Part shown: piece after piece, positions 10,421 to 32,096 of the stretch | Layout: every line of letters begins with the position of its first letter | Numbering within the stretch: the stretch's first letter is position 1 | Origin: Methanolobus profundi | GTDB lineage: Archaea > Halobacteriota > Methanosarcinia > Methanosarcinales > Methanosarcinaceae | Direction of reading: 5' to 3' | Assembly (NCBI RefSeq): GCF_900114835.1 | Contig: NZ_FOUJ01000005.1 | Span: forward strand, 62,001 to 126,000 | Length of the DNA stretch: 64,000 bases | Made by a program: the position numbers and the translations under genes | The notes under the pieces: model-generated | What the model was told of the DNA's origin: nothing | The model's input: the letters and a program-made list of their open reading frames with translations, nothing else | The model's database searches: none

Positions 10421-10495
10421 CGAGCGTGAAGGGATTTGAACCCCCGGCTTGCAGCTTAGGAGGCTGCCGCCATATCCTGACTAGGCCACACGCTC
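10421..10495 (-). tRNA. tRNA-Arg (anticodon CCT)
   Basis: A complete cloverleaf on the minus strand: 7-bp acceptor stem (GAGCGTG/CACGCTC), 3-bp D stem (GCC/GGC), 5-bp anticodon stem (GCAGC/GCTGC) with loop CTCCTAA giving anticodon CCT for AGG codons, a 5-base variable loop, and a T arm with the TTCAAAT loop. Two outer T-stem pairs are G-U. The discriminator base is G at 10421. CCA is not encoded. No intron. Confidence 0.95.
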
Positions 10496-19005: not shown

Positions 19006-20334
19006 TCAAATGGTATTCAGATAACGCTGTATCTCCCAGTCATGTACCTGGGTCCTGTATGCATCCCACTCTGCCCTTGCAAGCCTCAGTATATTATCGT
19101 GGACATGTTCTCCAAGTGTATCTTTGAGGAGTTCATCGTTCTCCAGATGGTCAGCACTTTCACTGATGGTCGCTGGCAGTGTATCGATCCCACGTTCGAT
19201 ACGCTCCTTTTTGCTAAGGTCGAAGACATTGTAGTCCATTATCCTTCCCGGTTCTAGTCCGTTCTTTATTCCATCAAGTCCGGCAGCAAGTATCGCTGCG
19301 AAGGTTATGTATGGATTGCAGGATGGATCAGGACTTCTTAATTCCACTCTTGTGCTCTTTCCTCTTGCAGAAGGTATACGTATCAGAGAGCTTCGGTTTG
19401 CACCTGACCATGTGATGTAGACCGGAGCCTCATATCCTGGTATGAGTCGCTTATAGGAGTTAACCAGTGGATTTGAAATGCATGAAATAGCTTTGATGTG
19501 TTTTAATACACCGGCTATGAACTGTTTTGCAGTCTCACTTATTTCCATATCTGCTTCAGGATCATAGAATGCATTCTCCTCTCCTCTGGAAAGTGAAAGG
19601 TTAATGTGCATTCCGGAACCGTTCTCAACAGCAATGGGTTTTGGCATGAAGGTCGCATGCAGGCCGTAAAGCTTTGCAATGGTCCTTGTGACATATTTGA
19701 ATGTCATGACATTATCTGCTGTTGCCAGTGCATCTCCGTATTTGAAATCGATCTCATGCTGTCCGAAAGCAACTTCATGGTGAGATGCCTCTATATCGAA
19801 ATTAAGATCGGTTAATGTCAGGACGATATCTCTTCTGATGTCCTCTGCAAGGTCAGTGGGGGCGAACTCGAAGTATCTTCCGTAGTCATGTGGTGTTGTC
19901 GTGGCTTTACCATCTACCTTTTCGAAAAGGAAGAATTCCAGTTCAGGACCCACATTAAGTGTATATCCCATCTCTTCCGCTTCTTTCATGACCTTCTTAA
20001 GGACGTAACGTGGGTCCGCTTCGAACTGTCTTCCGTCCGGCATGTGTATGTCGCATATCAGTCTTGCAACACCACCTTTGTCCTTGCTCCATGGGAGTAT
20101 CGCAAATGTTCTGATATCCGGTTTTAATACCATATCAGATTCATCGATCCTCACGAACCCTTCTATGGATGATCCGTCAAAGGATATTCCTGTTGTCAGG
20201 GCCTTTTCTATCTGTGTGACCGGGATCTCAACATCCTTGACCACTCCCTGTATATCCGTAAACTGCAAACGTATGAATTTTACGTTATTGGTTTCAATGG
20301 CTTTGATAACGTCTTCCTTATTGCATATTATCAT
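19006..20334 (-). CDS. Second glutamine synthetase type I (GlnA2)
   Basis: A 442-residue type I glutamine synthetase, clearly a paralogue of GlnA1: SFDGSSIEGF, GPELEFFLF, GSGMHINLSLS, NRSSLIRIPSARGK and NPYITFAAIL are all present. Unlike glnA1 it has no visible GGTA-N6-TACC operator or strong TATA box upstream, and its ribosome binding site is weak (GGCGATC). It may be expressed under other conditions or act on another substrate, as some GlnA-like enzymes are gamma-glutamyl-amine ligases. The linked acetyltransferase fits such a variant role, but this is inference. Confidence 0.92.
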   Translation of the reverse strand: MIICNKEDVIKAIETNNVKFIRLQFTDIQGVVKDVEIPVTQIEKALTTGISFDGSSIEGFVRIDESDMVLKPDIRTFAILPWSKDKGGVARLICDIHMPDGRQFEADPRYVLKKVMKEAEEMGYTLNVGPELEFFLFEKVDGKATTTPHDYGRYFEFAPTDLAEDIRRDIVLTLTDLNFDIEASHHEVAFGQHEIDFKYGDALATADNVMTFKYVTRTIAKLYGLHATFMPKPIAVENGSGMHINLSLSRGEENAFYDPEADMEISETAKQFIAGVLKHIKAISCISNPLVNSYKRLIPGYEAPVYITWSGANRSSLIRIPSARGKSTRVELRSPDPSCNPYITFAAILAAGLDGIKNGLEPGRIMDYNVFDLSKKERIERGIDTLPATISESADHLENDELLKDTLGEHVHDNILRLARAEWDAYRTQVHDWEIQRYLNTI

Positions 20335-22208: not shown

Positions 22209-22988
22209 TCACTCTTCCCCGGATCCCTCACTCCCTGGTCTGTGCTCTCCTCTGTGTCCGCGTGGTTGAGGGTTGCTTTCTCTGTACTCTTCCAGTATCT
22301 CCTTGAGCTCATCAAGTGTTGTTACATTCTCGATGTCCTCAAGCAAAGTTTCAAGGTTGGTTATCTGCTCTTCGATGATCTCTTCTGTGATGTTCTCATC
22401 CTCTATCTCATCGATGTTCTCAAGCATCTCACTGAGCATTTCGATCTTCTTGTTGATAGATTCTGTTTCCCTTTCTACAAGGAATGCCATCTCTTCTTCA
22501 TCTGAATCGAATACCATCTCCTCCATTTCAGGTCTGTCACCCTTCATGTCCGACATGGATCCTCTTGTTTCCTGCATGATCTCTTTGAGCTCATCCATTG
22601 TAGTTACATTCTCTATCTCATCAAGAAGTGCTTCAAGTTCAGATATTTCTTCTTCGATCGTTTCTTCTGTGATGTTCTCATCCTCTATCTCATCGATATT
22701 GTCAAGCATCTCCTGAAGCATTTCGATCCTATTATTGATAGACTCGGTTCCCTTTTCTATAAAGAATGCCAGTTCTTCTTCTTCTGAATCGAACTCCATT
22801 GCTTCTATGGTTCCGTCATCGCTCATTCCCGGGTCACCCTTTGGCCCATGCATCATCGGATGATCACCAAATTCTTTCGCATCTTCTGTGGTTCCTGCAT
22901 CATCAGCAAGGGCACCGGGTGTCACAGCACCAAGTACCATTACTACTAATGAAAGACAGGCCAGAACTTTCATGAATCTGTGTTTCAT
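22209..22988 (-). CDS. Acidic secreted coiled-coil protein with two internal repeats
   Basis: A 259-residue exported protein. A signal peptide (residues about 1-28, ending GALA) precedes two copies of a roughly 70-residue helical repeat. Each starts EEE(M/L)AF and contains TESIN, a methionine-leucine heptad, NIDEIEDENITEE and NVTT(M/L)DELKEI. The repeats are strongly acidic and look like paired coiled coils. The C-terminus is Arg/Gly/Glu-rich without a membrane anchor. Function unknown. It probably forms a transcript with the 21488 gene. Confidence 0.75.
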   Translation of the reverse strand: MKHRFMKVLACLSLVVMVLGAVTPGALADDAGTTEDAKEFGDHPMMHGPKGDPGMSDDGTIEAMEFDSEEEELAFFIEKGTESINNRIEMLQEMLDNIDEIEDENITEETIEEEISELEALLDEIENVTTMDELKEIMQETRGSMSDMKGDRPEMEEMVFDSDEEEMAFLVERETESINKKIEMLSEMLENIDEIEDENITEEIIEEQITNLETLLEDIENVTTLDELKEILEEYRESNPQPRGHRGEHRPGSEGSGEE

Positions 22989-23681
22989 TCATTTTCTCCA
23001 TCATTATTTTCTCAGTCAGGTCACACTGGTATATTGGTCAGCGCTCTCTGACAATTCCAAGATTATCAGACTTTAATATAAGCATACTTAACAAAAAAAG
23101 ATGATATTATGGCTTCAAATTAAAAAATAAAACTTCAATAAAGGTTTATTTGCTGATGAAATCTTTGAAATCCTTAAATGTGGTATTACAGTCTATCATA
23201 CTCTTATTTTCATGTGACATTTATGGATTATCTCATACCTGATCTCCAAGGTCAAGTAATTCTGTACATGTTCATATGGTAGATCCCCGTATCAGTTATC
23301 TGTTCAATAAGGTACAGGTGGTATCGGTCCATACGTACTATGGAGTTCTCTGACATTGCGGTTCTGGCCGGTAAAAATATCACTTTGAATTTGCCTTATT
23401 TCTGTTTATATTAGACAATAAAGTTGATATCGTAGTTATTTAGAACTTTTATTTGCTTTTATACTTCTGTTAATCATTTTAATCATTAAAAAAGCTTCAT
23501 AAAGTTTGAAAGCCATTTATATCTATTTTTTATTTGCCAGAAAAATGGCTTATCCCTAAGTATGTTTATATTTAAATCTCTCTTTTCTGGGTTTGTAATA
23601 AAAACGTAAGGTGCATGTAATATGTTCATTTTCAATAATATGTCAAGCTATATGGGAACACCCGGAGTGAGGTGATATATA
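22989..23681. other. 693-bp AT-rich intergenic region
   Basis: A divergent spacer between two secreted-protein genes. TATA-like stretches lie near both ends (TTATATTTAAAT at about 23566-23577). A 34-codon frame on the minus strand at 23252-23356 reads like protein (RMDRYHLYLIEQITDTG) but has no clear start signal; it may be a gene remnant. Nothing else was recognised. Confidence 0.45.
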
Positions 23682-24590
23682 ATGAAAAAGCTACCACTTG
23701 TACTGATAGGGTTCCTTGTGGCGATCGTACTGATATCCGGTATGGCGGATCAGGTGAGGCATTCCGATGTCCATGGAAAACAACACGACATCCTGTCCCA
23801 GTACTCTAGCTATATAAGTGAGAAAGATATCTCAGATGACAAGCCTTCTCCAACACAGTCCGACCTCGATATCTCAAAGGATGAAAAGGTCTTTCTGAGC
23901 GAGAACATTGCAAAATCGACTGAGATGGTAGAGCGCCTGGAAGTTACAGTTGCTGCTCTTGAAAGAGATGGGAACGATGTACAGGAACTGGAACAGATGA
24001 TAAATGATTACGCTTCACTTGTATCTGAGTCAAATGATTACCTTTCCAAAGCAGATGCTTCATCATCCAGTTCAGATGAGATAAAATACCTTGCAATGTC
24101 GAGGGACAAGATAATTCTGGCTGATAAGGAACTAAAGGATATATTCAACATAATCCATTCATATCTTCCAGGACCAGTAGAACTGTCAGAGGATCAGACC
24201 CTTACTCTTGAAGGTGATGGTATCGTGATACTTTCAGGTGACATTGATGTTGACCTTGGTCTGTCTGAAGGCAAGTTCTCGATAGTTGATTTTTCAGGTG
24301 ACCTGATGGTCGACGCAGATCAGCTTTCAAGCTATGAAACAATGCCTGATCAAGTAGTAATTCCAGATTCTCAGGAGTCACCACACAATATGGTATCATA
24401 TAATGATGCAAGTGGTAATGTGACAGTATCTGGTTCACTGATCACTGTAGCTGTAATGGGCAATGATCTGTCCCTCATTGTGGAGGGTACAGGTGAAGCT
24501 GAACTGTTCGGTAACGGTACCTATTCACTTGAGAATTCCAGTTCGCAAGAGGAAGGTATCTGGATCCCATCTATATTTGAAATGAAATGA
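23682..24590 (+). CDS. Secreted protein of duplicated surface module (copy 1)
   Basis: A 302-residue exported protein of unknown function. A signal peptide (residues about 1-22) is followed by a helical region at about 65-160 (NIAKSTEMVERLEVTVAALE, ELEQMINDYASLVSE) and then a beta-rich C-terminal half with repeated short strands (LEGDGIVILSGDID, FSGDLMVD, NVTVSGSLITVAVMG, VEGTGEAELFGNGTY). The paralogue at 26189-27094 aligns over its whole length. It starts after GGAGTGAGGTGATATATA. The membrane-anchored winged-helix gene follows 20 bp later, so it may be the extracellular partner of that regulator; that is inference. Confidence 0.75.
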   Translation: MKKLPLVLIGFLVAIVLISGMADQVRHSDVHGKQHDILSQYSSYISEKDISDDKPSPTQSDLDISKDEKVFLSENIAKSTEMVERLEVTVAALERDGNDVQELEQMINDYASLVSESNDYLSKADASSSSSDEIKYLAMSRDKIILADKELKDIFNIIHSYLPGPVELSEDQTLTLEGDGIVILSGDIDVDLGLSEGKFSIVDFSGDLMVDADQLSSYETMPDQVVIPDSQESPHNMVSYNDASGNVTVSGSLITVAVMGNDLSLIVEGTGEAELFGNGTYSLENSSSQEEGIWIPSIFEMK

Positions 24591-24610
24591 TGATCCGATG
24601 GTAATGTGGC

Positions 24611-25402
24611 ATGAGACTGGCATATTATGCAGGTTGCGTTACTATTCTTCTATTTTTTCCATATATTGCTGCTGCTGAGGGCACTGCCACTGTCCATGGG
24701 GTCGCATATGAATGGAACACGTTCGAGCCACTCGATAACATTGTGATCGAGGTAAATTCTACTCCTATGCAATCTATGGTTGCAAAATATGGTATATATT
24801 CCTTTGACCTTCCAAATGGCACATATCTCATTACTGCCAGTTCTTATGAGGATGATCGTCTCTCATACTATGGAGATGAGGTTATCACTGTGTCCGATGA
24901 AGGTAACTATGTAGTTGATATGTTGCTTGTGCCTGTTTATCAGGATACTGTAAGTGATACTTCCGCTGTCCACCAGAATGATATCTCGTTCACCCATCTT
25001 TACATATTCTCATTTTCAGTTGTCCTTATTCTTTTGATCTCATTGATGCATGAATTTAGAAAAAGGCCCTCGGATACAGTTGAAGAAAAGGCAAATGATG
25101 GATGCCTTGTATCTTCTGCATCTGGGGTGACATCTGATGATATGCATGAAATGGGGTATCATCCTATTACTCCAGATGTTGCTTACGAAATGCAGTGTGA
25201 ATTACTATTGTCCTCTGAGCAGCAGGAGATCATTGATATTATAAGGTCTCATGGAGGGACCATGACACAAAAGGACCTTCGTAAGTTATTGACCTATTCT
25301 GAAGGTAAGGTCAGTGTTATGCTACTTGGGCTTGAGAATTGTGGTATGATAAGGAAGACCAGAAAAGGTCGGAGCAATATTATTTTTCTTCTAGATGAGT
25401 GA
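24611..25402 (+). CDS. Membrane-anchored winged-helix regulator with extracellular carboxypeptidase-regulatory-like domain (copy 1)
   Basis: A 263-residue membrane protein resembling COG2512 predicted membrane-associated transcription regulators. A signal peptide (to about residue 21) precedes an outside beta-sandwich (VHGVAYEWNTFEPLDNIVIEVNS, YGIYSFDLPNGTYLITAS) of the CarboxypepD_reg kind. One membrane helix lies at about 130-150, followed by a basic stop. Residues about 200-263 form a cytosolic winged helix (IDIIRSHGGTMTQKDLRKLL, SEGKVSVMLLGLE). It may carry an envelope signal to DNA. The paralogue at 27109-28008 has the same order of domains. It lies just after the secreted partner gene. 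Confidence 0.8.
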   Translation: MRLAYYAGCVTILLFFPYIAAAEGTATVHGVAYEWNTFEPLDNIVIEVNSTPMQSMVAKYGIYSFDLPNGTYLITASSYEDDRLSYYGDEVITVSDEGNYVVDMLLVPVYQDTVSDTSAVHQNDISFTHLYIFSFSVVLILLISLMHEFRKRPSDTVEEKANDGCLVSSASGVTSDDMHEMGYHPITPDVAYEMQCELLLSSEQQEIIDIIRSHGGTMTQKDLRKLLTYSEGKVSVMLLGLENCGMIRKTRKGRSNIIFLLDE

Positions 25403-25592
25403 CATCTACCTCCGGTTGCGAGTTATTTTCATGCTGTATATTTTAAACCGGATAATACGGTATATTTTTAGATATATTAAGTTTTAATGCCTTTAATAAG
25501 TTTTAAAGATTAATATGTGCTCTTTTTTAGGAATTATGTCTAATATAAAGCTTCATTCATCGTTTTAGTCTATTCTTTATCTATTTTTCTGT

Positions 25593-25620
25593 AAGTATCC
25601 TTTTATTTGAAATAGCGAAT
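25593..25620 (+). promoter_or_regulatory. Conserved promoter of RNA element copy 1
   Basis: The stretch AAGTATCCTTTTATTTGAAA includes a TATA-like box and recurs almost unchanged before the second RNA copy (from 28236). It would place transcription start near 25625-25630, just before the first stem. Confidence 0.55.
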
Positions 25621-25787
25621 TAGTGAATTGCCCGTCGGTCATACTGCTCTGACGGGTACCACCCCACTTAGGTGGCACCTAAACCCCCAACCACATCCAG
25701 CCTAAGGTGCCACCACTGTACCAACAACCCCCTCTCGCTTAAGGGATGCCCAACCTATCCTGGGCATCTCTTGATCGATACAGGTGA
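25621..25787 (+). ncRNA. Structured RNA element copy 1 (leader of a small ORF)
   Basis: Three hairpins in tandem. P1: 25631-25636 with 25651-25656, 14-base loop. P2: 25671-25680 with 25705-25714, ten perfect pairs, 24-base loop containing CCCCCAACCACATCCAGCC. P3: 25741-25752 with 25761-25772, 12 pairs including one G-U, loop ACCTATCC. A second copy lies at 28264-28430 with the same stems, compensatory base changes and nearly identical loops. The element ends just before the ribosome binding site (AGGTGA) of a 65-codon ORF, so it is probably a 5' leader, though it could act alone. I do not recognise it as a known riboswitch. Confidence 0.8.
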
Positions 25788-25791
25788 GAAT

Positions 25792-25989
25792 ATGGAAAAT
25801 ATAAGGGATTCTTTAAAACAATTCATTGATTCAAGACTTCAGGAAGCGATCCGGTCTCAGGCACTATGTCCCAGTAACTTATATGTTGCATCAGGTCTTG
25901 TCAGGAAACTCGACCCGGGGCAAATTGAGCAGTTATCAGAAGCTTCTGGAAATAAATTGTTATGTTCTAAAACTGATTTTAAATGGTAA
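25792..25989 (+). CDS. Small protein downstream of RNA element (copy 1)
   Basis: A 65-residue protein starting MENIRDSLKQFI, with a ribosome binding site (AGGTGA, 25782-25787) right after hairpin P3. The long upstream extension of this frame runs through the structured RNA and was rejected. It aligns without gaps over 52 residues to the small protein at 28437-28604, sharing M-x2-I-x-D-x2-K at the start and S-x-L-x2-K-L-x-P-x-Q-x3-L-S near the end. Mostly helical and charged, no signal peptide. Function unknown. Confidence 0.65.
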   Translation: MENIRDSLKQFIDSRLQEAIRSQALCPSNLYVASGLVRKLDPGQIEQLSEASGNKLLCSKTDFKW

Positions 25990-26188
25990 TTGGTCCAATT
26001 TGTCCTATGGGCAGTGACCAATACGGTGAAATTAGCATTGAATAACTCTTCTCATCATTATCAGAGGCATGAATTTATATATTATTTGATATCATTAAAT
26101 CAAAGAAAACGTTTAAGATACATTAATATCTGTTAATCTGTCTTGAACCTGATATATTTATCATGTATCTATTCAGATGTGATCGTCA

Positions 26189-27094
26189 ATGAAAAGTATG
26201 CCTCTTATATTATTGATCTTCCTCATGCTGCTTGTTGTTATTTCCGGCATGGTGGGTTCTGAGGATATGCCCCAATATCCTGATGAAAGGGATAAGCATA
26301 ATGATATTTTTCCTCATCTTGATACAAGAGGCCCACATGAAGGGCAGATCCTTGTAATTCCAATAGTATCCGGTCCATCTGCGGATGTGGATACTTTCCT
26401 TGAAAATAATATAGAAGAGTCAGAAGAGATAGTGTTACGTCTTGCCGATGTTATAGCTCGCCTGAATGAGGAAGGTAAGGATGTTTCTGAACTTGAACAG
26501 AAGGCTTCAAATTACTCTGCTCTCGTTGCTGAGGCAAGGGACTACATAACAATGGCTGAAAGTTCCTCTTCGGAAGCAGACAGGCAGAAATACCTTGAAC
26601 TCTCAAGGGAAAGTATTATTCGTGCAAACGATGAGCTAAAGCCAATATTCGGTATCATAAAGGCACATCTTCCCGGGCCAGTTCCTATTGGTGACAATGA
26701 TGTTCTGGTAGCTCAAGGAAGTGGTATTGCTATATTGTCTGGCGACCTTGATGCCAGTATTTTCATTTCAACAGGCAAGTTCTCTGCAGTTGACTTTTCA
26801 GGAGACCTTCTGATAGATATGGAATATGAATTTGATCAGGAAGCTATGCCTGACAGAGCTCCCAGTGGAACTCTTATTAAGCCCCAAAATACGTATTCAT
26901 ATGTAGGGGTCACAGGTAATGTATCCTTGTCCGGTTCAGCATTCTCTATTGCAGTCATGGCTGAAGATATGGAAATATCAGTGTCCGGTACAGGTGAGGC
27001 TGAACTGATCGGAAATGGGACCTACTATTTAGATGGTGTTTCTTCCGATGGAAACGAAAATGTCTGGGCAGGGCCAATATTTGATAATAACTGA
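26189..27094 (+). CDS. Secreted protein of duplicated surface module (copy 2)
   Basis: A 301-residue exported protein, full-length paralogue of 23682-24590. The signal peptide (SMPLILLIFLMLLVVISGMV) precedes a helical region (NNIEESEEIVLRLADVIARL, ELEQKASNYSALVAEA) and a beta-rich C-terminal half (GSGIAILSGDLDASIFISTG, VDFSGDLLIDM, GNVSLSGSAFSIAVM, VSGTGEAELIGNGTYYLDG). Its ribosome binding site is of the GTGATC type. The winged-helix membrane gene follows 14 bp later, as in copy 1. Function unknown. Confidence 0.75.
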   Translation: MKSMPLILLIFLMLLVVISGMVGSEDMPQYPDERDKHNDIFPHLDTRGPHEGQILVIPIVSGPSADVDTFLENNIEESEEIVLRLADVIARLNEEGKDVSELEQKASNYSALVAEARDYITMAESSSSEADRQKYLELSRESIIRANDELKPIFGIIKAHLPGPVPIGDNDVLVAQGSGIAILSGDLDASIFISTGKFSAVDFSGDLLIDMEYEFDQEAMPDRAPSGTLIKPQNTYSYVGVTGNVSLSGSAFSIAVMAEDMEISVSGTGEAELIGNGTYYLDGVSSDGNENVWAGPIFDNN

Positions 27095-27108
27095 TATAAT
27101 GGACCAGG

Positions 27109-28008
27109 TTGTGTGAAATGAAACTAATATCCATCATTGTTCCTATTGCCATGATCCTGATGTTCTCAGGAGTTGCAGCGGCAGATATTGCAACTGTACA
27201 TGGCGTAGCCTATGAATGGAGTACGTTCGAACCACTGGACAATGCAATTGTAGCAGTGAACTCTACCCCCGCACAATCAATGGTAGCAAAATACGGTGTT
27301 TATTCCTTTGAATTGCCCAATGGCACATATCAGATAACTGCAAGTTATTATGAGGATGATCAGCTTACGTATTATGCAGATGACCTTATCACTGTCTCGG
27401 ATGAAGGCAGCTATGTTCTGGATATTTTACTCTTGCCTTCGTATTCCAGTTCCGTTAATACAACGGCTACAACTACATCAGAGGATGTTACATCCTCTAC
27501 AACAGAGGACCGTAATCCATTAATTATCGGTGCATTGCTGGTTGTTGTCGTTCTTCTTGCTATTCTTGCACTTCAGATGAAGCAAAGGCCACAAGCTCCT
27601 GCTGCTTCCAGGAAGGCAAAACCAATGTCCCATCCACCGGTGACACCAGAAGTTACAGAAAAGCTTCCTGCTACTTCAAAGGAAGAGCCTCAGGATGAGT
27701 CAGTAATAGAGGAGGTTCTCGATGAGGTATCTGAACCCCTTGTTCCTGTTGCAGAGCCTATTACAAAGGAAGAACCTGCCCCTGCTCCGGTACCTTCAGA
27801 TGAACCGGTGCCTGCTGATCTTCAGGAGATCCTTGACATCCTTAAGTCGCAGGGTGGAAGGATGACCCAGAAGGACATGCGTAAACGTCTCAAATACTCC
27901 GAGGGAAAAGTAAGCCTGATGCTGCTTGATCTTGAGAAGAGGGGCAAGATACAGAAGTTCAAGAAGGGTCGTGGGAATGTTCTGTTCCTTGTGGAACCTG
28001 ATGAATGA
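27109..28008 (+). CDS. Membrane-anchored winged-helix regulator with extracellular carboxypeptidase-regulatory-like domain (copy 2)
   Basis: A 299-residue paralogue of 24611-25402 (COG2512-like). The GTG at 27109 is one possible start; the in-frame ATG at 27118 (MKLISIIVPIAMILM) fits the signal peptide better. The outside domain keeps VHGVAYEWSTFEPLDNAIVAVNS and SYVLDILLLPSYS. A membrane helix lies at about 142-160, then a proline/glutamate-rich linker of about 70 residues that copy 1 lacks. The C-terminal winged helix (SQGGRMTQKDMRKRLKYSEG, VSLMLLDLEKRGKI) is followed by a basic wing. The longer linker may change its reach to DNA. Confidence 0.8.
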   Translation: MCEMKLISIIVPIAMILMFSGVAAADIATVHGVAYEWSTFEPLDNAIVAVNSTPAQSMVAKYGVYSFELPNGTYQITASYYEDDQLTYYADDLITVSDEGSYVLDILLLPSYSSSVNTTATTTSEDVTSSTTEDRNPLIIGALLVVVVLLAILALQMKQRPQAPAASRKAKPMSHPPVTPEVTEKLPATSKEEPQDESVIEEVLDEVSEPLVPVAEPITKEEPAPAPVPSDEPVPADLQEILDILKSQGGRMTQKDMRKRLKYSEGKVSLMLLDLEKRGKIQKFKKGRGNVLFLVEPDE

Positions 28009-28235
28009 TCCTTTATTATTGATCTCTATTTTTCGAAGTTTAACAGAGTAATTATTTGTCAATAGGAGCAACTATCTTTTTATTTGGATATTATTTATGG
28101 ACTTTTATTTTTAAGATATCTCTGCTATTAATTAGATAATAAGCTTTTAAGATACTTATGTGGTATTTTATAACTATTTAAGTCTCTATAAAGCTTTATT
28201 TTTTAATTGTGGCTTATTTTATGCCTTTTCATAAT

Positions 28236-28263
28236 AAGTATCCTTTTATTTAAAACTACGAAT
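28236..28263 (+). promoter_or_regulatory. Conserved promoter of RNA element copy 2
   Basis: AAGTATCCTTTTATTTAAAA matches the stretch before copy 1 in all but one position and includes a TATA-like TTTATTTAAAA. Confidence 0.55.
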
Positions 28264-28430
28264 TAGGGAATTGCCTGTCGGCACTACTGCTCTGACAGGT
28301 ACCACCCAATTGGTGGCACCAACCCCCAACCACATCCAGCCCGGTGTCACCAATGTACCAACAACCAACCCTTCGTATAAGGGACACCTGTTTCCTATCC
28401 ACCAGGTGTCTCTTATCCGAAACAGGAGGA
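28264..28430 (+). ncRNA. Structured RNA element copy 2 (leader of a small ORF)
   Basis: The same three hairpins as copy 1. P1: 28274-28279 with 28294-28299, 14-base loop. P2: 28309-28320 with 28343-28354, 12 pairs with one G-U, 22-base loop with the same CCCCCAACCACATCCAGCC. P3: 28377-28390 with 28403-28416, 14 pairs with one G-U, loop containing CCTATCC. Compared with copy 1, P1 has one compensated pair change (C-G to T-A) and P3 has four (T-A to C-G, G-C to A-T, C-G to T-A, A-T to G-C). Loops and the linker TGTACCAACAACC are conserved. The SD AGGAGG (28424-28429) of the next ORF follows. Confidence 0.8.
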
Positions 28431-28436
28431 GAAAAA

Positions 28437-28604
28437 ATGACAGATATTAACGATACAAAGAAGAAATATGTTGGAACACTGGTTCGCAGCATGCAAAGGA
28501 CGTCTGAAAGCAGATCAGGTTCGATCTCCATTGTTTCAGCTCTGGAAGGAAAATTGAGTCCTGAACAGATGAACCGTCTGTCACACATATCCCGACTGGG
28601 TTGA
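28437..28604 (+). CDS. Small protein downstream of RNA element (copy 2)
   Basis: A 55-residue protein (MTDINDTKKKYVGTLVRSMQ...) with a strong ribosome binding site (AGGAGG, 28424-28429). It aligns without gaps to the 65-residue protein at 25792 but is 10 residues shorter at the C-terminus. Charged, helical, no signal peptide or metal motif. It lies 105 bp upstream of the ABC exporter operon, which has its own start region, so co-transcription is possible but not shown. Function unknown. Confidence 0.65.
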   Translation: MTDINDTKKKYVGTLVRSMQRTSESRSGSISIVSALEGKLSPEQMNRLSHISRLG

Positions 28605-28709: not shown

Positions 28710-29459
28710 ATGGACGAGAATCACACTAATGTAGAACAGGAACTTGCAGGGGACGGACCTGACACTCTCATGCGTCTGACCGACGTATGGAAGATATACA
28801 AAATGGGAGATGTCGAGTTTGCAGCATTGAAGGGCGTTGACCTGGAGATCCTCCATGGCGAGTTCGTAGTAATACTTGGACCCAGTGGAAGTGGCAAGAG
28901 TACAATGATGAACCTTCTTGGATGTCTTGACATACCAAGCAAAGGTGTTGTAGAACTGAACAACAGGGACATCGCTCAGATGAAGGAATCAGAGCTTGCC
29001 CAGATAAGAGGTCAATTAATTGGTTTCATTTTTCAGACATTCAATCTGCTACCGACACTGAACACAATAGAAAACGTAATGCTTCCTCTTGAATTTCAGG
29101 AAGCTGATCCCGATCATTCATGGAAGAGAGCAGAACAACTACTCGATATAGTCTCTCTCGGTGATAAAAAATACAATCTTCCTTCACAATTGTCTGGTGG
29201 ACAGAGGCAAAGAGTTGCGATCGCAAGATCTTTGGCAGTTGATCCCAAGGTCATCCTTGCGGACGAACCAACAGGTAATCTGGACAGTGAAACAGGAAAT
29301 TACATTCTTGAATTCTTAAGTAACCTTCACCAAAAGGAAGGTAAAACTATCATAATGATCACCCACGATCCGGAACTAACCAAATATGCAGATCGTGTGG
29401 TTCATATCAAAGATGGAATGGTCGATAATATAGAGATAATAAAGCGTGAAGCAATGTGA
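28710..29459 (+). CDS. ABC transporter ATP-binding protein (MacB/LolD type)
   Basis: A 249-residue ATPase energising the permease at 30831-32096. It has Walker [10 protein letters not shown], the Q-loop in [12 protein letters not shown], the signature [16 protein letters not shown], Walker [14 protein letters not shown] and the switch histidine in ITHDPELT, all typical of the MacB/LolD/FtsE group. About 20 N-terminal residues form an acidic extension. It overlaps the frame of the next gene only by an unused GTG. The complex probably exports or moves a substrate at the cell surface in a mechanotransmission manner; the substrate is unknown. Confidence 0.92.
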
Positions 29460-29463
29460 TAAT

Positions 29464-30828
29464 ATGAGAAAATTATTGATATTAATGTTAATACTACTGC
29501 TGCCAATAACCAATGCAGCAGCAGGCTTGAATGCAGGTGCATCAGGGGTGAATGTGGATCTGATGACCCAGAGTCCGTATCCTGCAAGGCCTGGTGAGAC
29601 CGTAGAATTAACTCTCAGTCTCCAGAACGAAGGAAGCAATGACCTCTCTGATGTCGTTGTAAGTATAGATGCTGATTATCCTTTCAGTCAGGTCTCCGGA
29701 CAGTCACTGACAAAGACGATATCCTACATGGAAGCTCGTCAGGATGAGGAAGATGCAACAACTGTAAAATTCAAGTTAAAAGTAGATTCTGATGTTTCAG
29801 ATGGAACTTATGACATAGATGTTATTGTAAAGGACAGTGAGTCTGACTCTAGCTCCGTAACAACCCTTGAAGTTGAAGTACAGGGTAAGGAATATGCTCA
29901 GATCGTCACAATAAGTGATTCCAGCATTGATGTTGCAACTGTAGAACCTCTTGAGTTTGTCATAACCAATACAGGTTCATCACCACTACAGAACATGGCG
30001 GTCTCATGGGAAGAATCAACCGGTACGATCTTACCTGTATATTCCTCTAACACCAAGTACATAACTTCTCTGGATGTCGATGAATCAGTCGCAGTAGTAT
30101 ACTCTGTAATGGCTGATGTAGATGCAGATCCCGGATTATATCAACTTGATATCACACTTGAGTTCCAGGATTATAATTCCAACACAACTTTGATAGAAAC
30201 CAAAGCTGGAATGTTTGTTGGAGGAACCACTGACTTTGATCTGAGCTACTCAGAAAGTGACGAAGGAGAGGTTTCTCTGTCCCTTGCGAATGTAGGTAAT
30301 AATGAGGCTTACTCTGTGAAAGTATCAATACCTGAACAGGACAATTTTGAAGCTACAGGAAGTACCTCTACGATCGTCGGTAACCTTGAGAAGGGCGATT
30401 ACACTATCACATCATTCTCAATAAGCCAGACAAGTTCAATGCCATCAATGGATGAAGGTTCATCTGGTACAGCAGATGCAGAGCCTTCCGAGATGACAGA
30501 AGAGGACATGGAAGCCATGCAGGAAGAAATGGAAGCAAAGACCGAACTTCTTGTCAACATTGAATACACAGACTCTGCAGGTCAGAGACACACCGTGGAA
30601 AAGGCTGTTCAGATCGAGGAATTGACTGGTGGCACAATGGGAGACATGTCCGGCGGACCAGGTCAGAGCTCATCATCTAACAGCTATCTGTTGTACGGTG
30701 CAGTTGCACTTGTAGTCGTAGTTGTAGGACTCAATTACAGAAAGAAGAAGATGATCAAAGAAGGCAACTATGTTCCACTTAACGTTGAGCTAAGAAATCT
30801 CAAGGCTAAAATATTGAAGAAGGACTAA
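29464..30828 (+). CDS. COG1361-type surface protein partner of the ABC exporter
   Basis: A 454-residue membrane-anchored extracellular protein. The ATG at 29464 gives a signal peptide (MRKLLILMLILLLPITNAAA). Then come several CARDB-like beta-sandwich repeats (PARPGETVELTLSLQNEGSN, VVSIDADYPF, FVITNTGSSPLQNM, SLANVGNNEAYSV). An acidic, methionine-rich stretch at about 340-365 precedes a C-terminal membrane helix (LLYGAVALVVVVVGL) and a basic tail. Such proteins regularly lie between MacB-like ATPase and permease genes in archaea and may serve as the periplasmic-adaptor equivalent. It starts 4 bp after the ATPase gene. Confidence 0.82.
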   Translation: MRKLLILMLILLLPITNAAAGLNAGASGVNVDLMTQSPYPARPGETVELTLSLQNEGSNDLSDVVVSIDADYPFSQVSGQSLTKTISYMEARQDEEDATTVKFKLKVDSDVSDGTYDIDVIVKDSESDSSSVTTLEVEVQGKEYAQIVTISDSSIDVATVEPLEFVITNTGSSPLQNMAVSWEESTGTILPVYSSNTKYITSLDVDESVAVVYSVMADVDADPGLYQLDITLEFQDYNSNTTLIETKAGMFVGGTTDFDLSYSESDEGEVSLSLANVGNNEAYSVKVSIPEQDNFEATGSTSTIVGNLEKGDYTITSFSISQTSSMPSMDEGSSGTADAEPSEMTEEDMEAMQEEMEAKTELLVNIEYTDSAGQRHTVEKAVQIEELTGGTMGDMSGGPGQSSSSNSYLLYGAVALVVVVVGLNYRKKKMIKEGNYVPLNVELRNLKAKILKKD

Positions 30829-30830
30829 AA

Positions 30831-32096
30831 ATGAGACGAAGCACCTATATTAAGCTCGCTACTAACATCCTGGTCCACAGTAAGATCAGAAGCTGGCTCA
30901 CTATAATAGGTATCGTCATCGGTGTTGGATCAGTTGTCACCATTATGGCACTAAGTGACAGTATGTCTGCTGATATGGAAGAACAATTTGCTGATATGGA
31001 CCTTACATTGATCCAGGTAACTCCTGGTTATTCCCATGCATCAATGGGAGGGCCAGGAGGAGGAGGAGGTCCGCCAGGCTCAGGTGGATCCTCAAGTTCT
31101 TCTTCATCCTCTGATGACGATGATCCTGAGTTGACCAAAAAGGACATACAGGCCCTAAAAGCGGTTGACAATATAGATTACATCTATGGACAGATATCCG
31201 GCAGTGATCTGGAAGTGTATTTCATGGGTGAGACTGCGGATCTTTCAGTGACAGGAGTTGACCCACAGGTCTGGCAGTACACAGTAACCTATGAACTGGA
31301 ATCCGGCAGATTGCTGGATGCCTCTGACACTAACGTTGTGGTTATAGGTTATGGTATAGCTCACGATATGTTTGATGATGAAGTAGGCCTGAACCGTGTG
31401 TTGACCATCGAAGGCAAATCATACAGGGTAGTAGGTATACTGGCAGAGGACGAAAGTGACAACGCGATCATCATGCCGATAGATTCAGCAGTCGAGATCG
31501 TAGAAGACGCAGAAGATGATGTTTACGATACCATTGTCGTAAAGGCATCGGATACCGACTATGTTGAAACGGTCGTTGAAGATGTCGAAGAACGTCTGAT
31601 GTTATCCAGAGGTATCATGGACGAAGATGACAGGGACTTCTCTGTTTCAGATTCACTTTCACAGGCAGAATCTGCCAGTGAGATGATGGAATCCATGACA
31701 ATATTCCTGGGAGCCATAGCAGGAGTTTCACTTCTTGTGGGTTCTGTGGGTATTGCAAATACGATGCTTACATCAGTAATGGAGAAAACCAAGGAGATCG
31801 GTACGATGAAGGCTATCGGTGCTAAGAACGGAGATATTCTCATGATATTCCTGTTCAACTCGGCACTTGTGGGCTTTGTAGGAGGCGTGCTTGGTATATT
31901 GCTAAGTCTTGCATTGACGTCGTTGATGCCGTATCTGGGAATTTCCATGACACGTTCATCCATGGGTATGACCGTTGCTCCATCTCTGATGGTGATGGGT
32001 ATTGCCATTGCGGTGTTCATAGGAGTGCTGTCAGGTATCATCCCGGCATACAATGCTTCAAAGATGAGACCAGTGGATGCATTGAGATACGAATAA
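30831..32096 (+). CDS. MacB/FtsX-like ABC transporter permease
   Basis: A 421-residue permease. The N-terminal membrane helix (SWLTIIGIVIGVGSVVTIMAL) is followed by an extracellular MacB_PCD domain (about 45-280), then three C-terminal helices with the FtsX signature (MTIFLGAIAGVSLLVGSVGI, EKTKEIGTMKAIGAKN, PVDALRYE). An unusual low-complexity insert of glycine, serine and aspartate occupies residues about 74-98 of the outside domain. It is the last gene of the three-gene exporter operon, starting 2 bp after the COG1361 gene. Confidence 0.92.
   Translation: MRRSTYIKLATNILVHSKIRSWLTIIGIVIGVGSVVTIMALSDSMSADMEEQFADMDLTLIQVTPGYSHASMGGPGGGGGPPGSGGSSSSSSSSDDDDPELTKKDIQALKAVDNIDYIYGQISGSDLEVYFMGETADLSVTGVDPQVWQYTVTYELESGRLLDASDTNVVVIGYGIAHDMFDDEVGLNRVLTIEGKSYRVVGILAEDESDNAIIMPIDSAVEIVEDAEDDVYDTIVVKASDTDYVETVVEDVEERLMLSRGIMDEDDRDFSVSDSLSQAESASEMMESMTIFLGAIAGVSLLVGSVGIANTMLTSVMEKTKEIGTMKAIGAKNGDILMIFLFNSALVGFVGGVLGILLSLALTSLMPYLGISMTRSSMGMTVAPSLMVMGIAIAVFIGVLSGIIPAYNASKMRPVDALRYE

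Follow-up and report, generated by a model that had tools for sequence, protein, structure and literature searches.

A structured RNA element with fixed loop words precedes small open reading frames and a MacB-type exporter operon in Methanolobus

Structured cis-regulatory RNAs described in archaea are few. The bacterial CsrA/RsmE and TRAP systems employ repeated single-stranded words (GGA sites and NAG repeats, respectively) that lie before several operons. The element described here resembles them in that different scaffolds display short single-stranded words in front of several operons; in contrast, its word is ACC-rich and G-free, and its host is an archaeon. Unlike the words of CsrA/RsmE and TRAP, the ACC-rich word has no cognate protein that we know of, and to our knowledge no ACC-word-binding factor has been reported in archaea. 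Among the regulatory RNAs of the Methanosarcinaceae, sRNA162 of Methanosarcina mazei (PMC3510493) differs in being a trans-acting sRNA. The sRNA154 of that species also acts in trans. In Methanolobus psychrophilus, a member of the genus in which the element occurs, leaders longer than 150 nt were proposed to act post-transcriptionally (Li et al. 2015, PMC5378194). Those long 5´ UTRs share with the present locus a TATA box located about 19–22 nt from the start. However, they are diverse single leaders with no common fold, whereas the element is a family whose members covary in their stems, keep their loop words fixed and share a promoter.

The window, which is the whole stretch of 64,000 nt of Methanolobus profundi DNA that was analysed, contains two copies of the element within the following set of features.

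23682–25402, + strand: first tandem unit, genes A (23682–24590) and B (24611–25402)
25548–25553, no strand: AAGCTT palindrome of copy 1, 44 nt before its TAAGTAT box
25592–25610, + strand: predicted promoter of copy 1 (TTTTATTTGA), TAAGTAT and TATA boxes (genome-wide pattern, reversed control near zero)
25620–25782, + strand: first copy of the candidate RNA leader element, assigned to class 1 (covariance model 168.6 bits; covariation)
25629–25658, + strand: hairpin P1, copy 1 (fold, covariation)
25657–25665, + strand: linker UACCACCCC 3´ of P1, copy 1, the most conserved single-stranded word of the element (identity 98.4%), also present in leaders of other genera
25671–25714, + strand: hairpin P2, copy 1, with loop CCCCCAACCACATCCAGCC at 25684–25702 (fold, covariation, loop identity)
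25717–25729, + strand: linker TGTACCAACAACC, copy 1 (exact-word search)
25735–25778, + strand: hairpin P3, copy 1, with loop CCTATCC at 25754–25760 (fold, covariation)
25792–25989, + strand: small ORF 1, 65 aa, SD AGGTGA at 25782–25787 (orthologues, median dN/dS 0.36)
26189–28008, + strand: second unit, paralogues A´ (26189–27094) and B´ (27109 or 27118 to 28008)
28191–28196, no strand: AAGCTT palindrome of copy 2 (promoter-spacing survey)
28235–28253, + strand: predicted promoter of copy 2, TAAGTAT and TATA boxes (genome-wide pattern, reversed control near zero)
28263–28424, + strand: candidate RNA leader element copy 2 (covariance model 164 bits)
28272–28301, + strand: hairpin P1, copy 2 (fold)
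28309–28354, + strand: hairpin P2, copy 2 (fold)
28354–28366, + strand: linker TGTACCAACAACC, copy 2 (exact-word search)
28372–28421, + strand: hairpin P3, copy 2, with loop CCTATCC at 28394–28400 (fold)
28437–28604, + strand: small ORF 2, 55 aa, SD AGGAGG at 28424–28429 (orthologues, median dN/dS 0.44)
28710–32096, + strand: MacB-type exporter (Pfam, NCBIfam), comprising the ATPase (28710–29459), an exported repeat protein (about 29464–30828) and the MacB_PCD/FtsX permease (30831–32096)

A preliminary description of this DNA had reported two copies that fold into the same three hairpins, and had read their changing stems and fixed loops as those of a conserved functional RNA, one not recognised as a described riboswitch or sRNA. 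The covariance model places both copies where they had been located, and full-length folding predicts P1, P2 and P3 for each of them (z = −5.9 for copy 1 and −5.5 for copy 2; 0 of 200 dinucleotide shuffles equally stable). The base changes are also as reported: P1 carries one compensated change between the copies (C-G to U-A), P3 carries four compensated pairs (U-A/C-G, G-C/A-U, C-G/U-A and A-U/G-C), P2 differs by a single G-C to G-U change, and CCCCCAACCACATCCAGCC, TGTACCAACAACC and CCTATCC are identical in both. Since two paralogues alone constitute a weak covariation test, 27 close homologues from 15 Methanolobus genomes were aligned on a three-helix structure of 34 pairs and compared with shuffled and slid controls. 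Paired cells make up 96.4% over the 34 pairs. Compensatory changes exceed both types of control: 15 of the 34 pairs show both-sided changes (mean 7.5 in 500 shuffles, none as high; 1–7 in slid controls), and the covariation score is 0.324, versus 0.215 after shuffling and at most 0.105 after sliding. The alignment contains 84 G-U cells but 8 A-C cells, which shows that it is the sense-strand RNA that folds. Identity is 94–98% in loops and linkers and 86% in stems, and the unpaired positions consist of 47% C, 33% A and 5% G. Rfam 15, searched over the whole window at the gathering threshold, returned a single match, a tRNA at 10421–10495; lax thresholds returned nothing relevant to the element, and literature searches found no paper describing it. 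The element is a real and apparently undescribed archaeal RNA family, and the earlier interpretation, which the covarying homologues support, is extended below.

Among 60 relatives searched at the DNA level, Methanolobus yielded strong matches, and covariance models added further divergent copies there. Of 27 Methanolobus genomes, 19 have the element; the matches of covariance model R3 in G016 and G026 (the latter at G026:C1:1348539-1348717, minus strand) are independent of its training sequences. All 19 genomes that encode an orthologous MacB-type exporter ATPase, including G011 with a partial match of 73% identity, carry the element, and it is found in none of the 8 genomes that lack the ATPase. 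In other genera of the same family, covariance models recognise two copies in G157 and, more weakly, two in G145; they gave no match outside the family among 295 genomes drawn across the phylum. An Lcl-domain protein and a DUF4405/flavoprotein cluster follow the two copies in G157; an 11-codon ORF (MKIMGCTYYSK; L133) lies directly 3´ of both, with a synonymous change between them. A second exporter ATPase (G001:C1:894245-894946), 88% identical, is located far from the element, and the covariance model reported no element at this gene. The exact linker TGTACCAACAACC occurs in 11 of the 27 Methanolobus genomes, where 20 of its 23 matches fall in class-1 leaders and 1 in a class-2 leader. A distant-order match to the P2 loop word (G044/G056) was discarded because the rest of the element is absent there, and of the 51 stretches of the species collection with the exact loop word, some of them from Methanolobus, most are bacterial and were collectively taken as chance.

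Each copy is preceded by a conserved TATA promoter, TAAGTATNYTTWTATT, and 44 nt before this promoter there is usually an AAGCTT. The extended promoter pattern has dozens of matches in 112 family genomes and almost none in the reversed control; a survey of 91 promoters gave 35 cases of AAGCTT 43–45 nt 5´ of TAAGTAT, and the background frequency is 0.054 per 120 nt. Because TATA boxes lie 19–22 nt from the transcription start site in M. psychrophilus (PMC5378194), the 5´ end of the RNA is placed just before P1. The promoter position predicts starts at about 25625–25630 for copy 1 and 28268–28272 for copy 2, which agrees with the starts near 25625 and 28268 suggested in the preliminary description.

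The element is located between this promoter and the RBS of a conserved operon. In most copies the SD sequence and start codon lie directly 3´ of P3, and copy 2 is followed by ORF 2, the MacB-type ATPase, the exported protein and the FtsX/MacB permease, in that order. The promoter recurs, together with a 5´ hairpin, at orthologous exporters in other genera of the family; in several of them UACCACC follows the hairpin or lies within it. A third fold (L182/L183) precedes the exporter in another genus. The small proteins form a family of 55–80 aa with a KLTPEQMxRLxxISP-like core, and most of the type-1 and single-copy forms also have DFxW at the C terminus; ORF 2 and the ORF 1 family share a KLSPEQMxRL core, and no Pfam or NCBIfam match was obtained for the family. 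As a single copy the small ORF is under purifying selection (median dN/dS 0.15); in the duplicated clade this selection is weaker (medians of 0.36 for ORF 1 and 0.44 for ORF 2), and the ORF is broken or missing in several genomes. In one of them (L047) it is absent and the leader lies directly 5´ of the exporter ATPase. In the first unit, A is an exported protein and B is a membrane-anchored DUF7343 winged-helix protein. The existence of a single-copy state (L137) suggests that the two copies in the window arose by tandem duplication of A, the DUF7343 regulator B, the RNA and the ORF.

The same promoter pattern, with AAGCTT about 25 nt before TAAGTAT, marks class-2 leaders before DUF4405 and VTC-domain genes (20 matches in 14 Methanolobus genomes; alignment A4, 16 sequences). 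The class-2 fold, a long stem AAGATCACATGTT/AACATGTGATCTT that closes a loop with ACCACCAACCACC and GTACCACCA, differs from that of class 1, but the UACCA(A/C) loop words are common to both. UACCA(A/C)/GUACCA words number 78 in class 1 versus 10.5 in dinucleotide shuffles, and 44 versus 6.9 in class 2. They are strand-specific, with 1–8 per leader of either class on the sense strand and almost none on the opposite strand. The class-2 leader of G019 contains the class-1 word TGTACCAACAACC exactly. Class-2 and class-3 leaders are found at L156, L158, L161 and L182–L214.

We propose, with roughly even confidence, that the copies are cis-acting 5´ leaders of an envelope regulon that are read by a putative trans factor. 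The dedicated promoter (AAGCTT, then TAAGTAT, then TATA) would start transcription just before P1, and P1, P2 and P3 would hold almost G-free, ACC-rich words (UACCACCC, CCAACCACAUCCAGCC, GUACCAACAACC and CCUAUCC) single-stranded. The leader would end at the RBS of the small ORF; the ORF of copy 2 would head the MacB-type exporter operon, and that of copy 1 would head the duplicated upstream unit of that operon. The factor, probably an RNA-binding protein, would most likely recognise the repeated UACCA(A/C) words and set the translation or stability of the transcript; the sequences themselves show the fold, its strand, the promoter, the position, the shared words and the co-occurrence with the exporter, and from them we infer transcription, the factor and the direction of control. 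The DUF4405 and VTC leaders, which have the same words and promoter, would be co-regulated. For TRAM RNA chaperones, no sequence motif was found that could be compared. That a single RNA-binding factor reads UACCA(A/C) on unrelated scaffolds, under one promoter type, at export, polyphosphate-related (VTC) and heme-membrane (DUF4405) genes is a tentative and somewhat doubtful extension. If it is true, this factor would coordinate envelope export with the VTC and DUF4405 genes, and the regulon would do in an archaeon what the CsrA or TRAP systems do in bacteria. The leader family predicts a specific RNA-binding factor that should be amenable to pull-down, and its strong covariation, defined promoter, clear gene context and second class may offer a handle on post-transcriptional control in methanogens.

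Some observations fit this proposal less well. The RNA is retained where ORF 1 is lost or broken (L036, L046), and in G157 the nearest sizeable ORF lies about 190–210 nt past the element; neither is expected of a leader that purely controls translation of that ORF. Predicted masking of the SD is inconsistent: folding gives a mean unpaired value of 0.33 for the SD, with 0.5–0.7 in many type-2 copies and partners that vary by copy. Pairing of ACCACC with the SD was rejected as a general mechanism; of the 27 copies, a single one shows it strongly and two more show it partially.

The main rival is a free-standing trans-acting sRNA, since the RNA is still present when the ORF has decayed. Such an sRNA would be transcribed from its own promoter and bind G-rich mRNA sites through its C-rich loops, and the ORFs would be neighbours or give it a dual function. 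Such loops, when single-stranded, resemble those of SD-targeting bacterial sRNAs, and the RNA is kept where the ORF is lost (copy 1 of G002 and of G005) or absent (the two copies of G157, in another context). Intergenic sRNAs are also numerous in M. psychrophilus (195; PMC5378194). We nevertheless regard this reading as unlikely, because the element strictly co-occurs with the exporter and adjoins it, the SD comes directly behind P3, and other genes have leaders with the same words, as would be expected of a cis site. The linker TGTACCAACAACC has no recurrent genomic match outside leaders; its complements, sought as sRNA targets, did not recur in the genomes, and two isolated matches lie outside leaders.

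The leader could alternatively be passive, its 5´ stem-loops blocking 5´-3´ decay and its G-free linkers keeping the ribosome landing site open with no factor involved. P1 at the predicted 5´ end suits this role, and long 5´ UTRs are common in a cold-adapted methanogen, in which they stabilise mtaA/mtaC mRNA (PMC5378194). Yet conservation of the loop and linker words exceeds that of the stems, and these words turn up in more than one leader class; mere unpairedness would not require as much, and a passive leader is distinctly unlikely. A riboswitch that senses a metabolite or ion and controls export would account for fixed loops on variable stems and for the position before a transporter, and ACCACC can alternatively pair with GGUGG of P2. 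This pairing is nearly invariant in class 1, where it therefore affords no covariation test, and is missing in some genera. The element contains no multi-helix junction with conserved purines and has no Rfam match, and its conserved parts are G-poor repeats that vary in number and recur on the unrelated class-2 scaffolds; a riboswitch is accordingly a poor candidate. It is highly improbable that the feature acts as DNA (operator or recombination palindromes) or that a recent duplication merely mimics conservation, despite the inverted repeats close to a conserved promoter and the tandem duplication, since the stems drift with compensation, G-U is tolerated on one strand only (84 versus 8) and the words are strand-specific.

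The promoter type is also found at neighbouring genes of the window. A divergent gene for an exported protein (22209–22988) has the same TAAGTATGCTTATATT promoter (23020–23090, minus strand), and a P1-like hairpin, AATTGTCAGAGAGCGCTGACCAATATACCA, opens its leader, which has no other part of the element. The window also appears to contain two glutamine-synthetase-like genes (19006–20334, minus strand, and around 12627, + strand), judged from sequence only. Gene A has the same promoter, TAAGTATGTTTATATTTAAA, at 23556–23575 (+ strand), and its leaders contain no ACC words, so the promoter type and the ACC words are not always paired. In orthologues of gene A, AAGCTT often occurs twice, at distances of 64 and 54 nt upstream, and this double site is perhaps autoregulatory.
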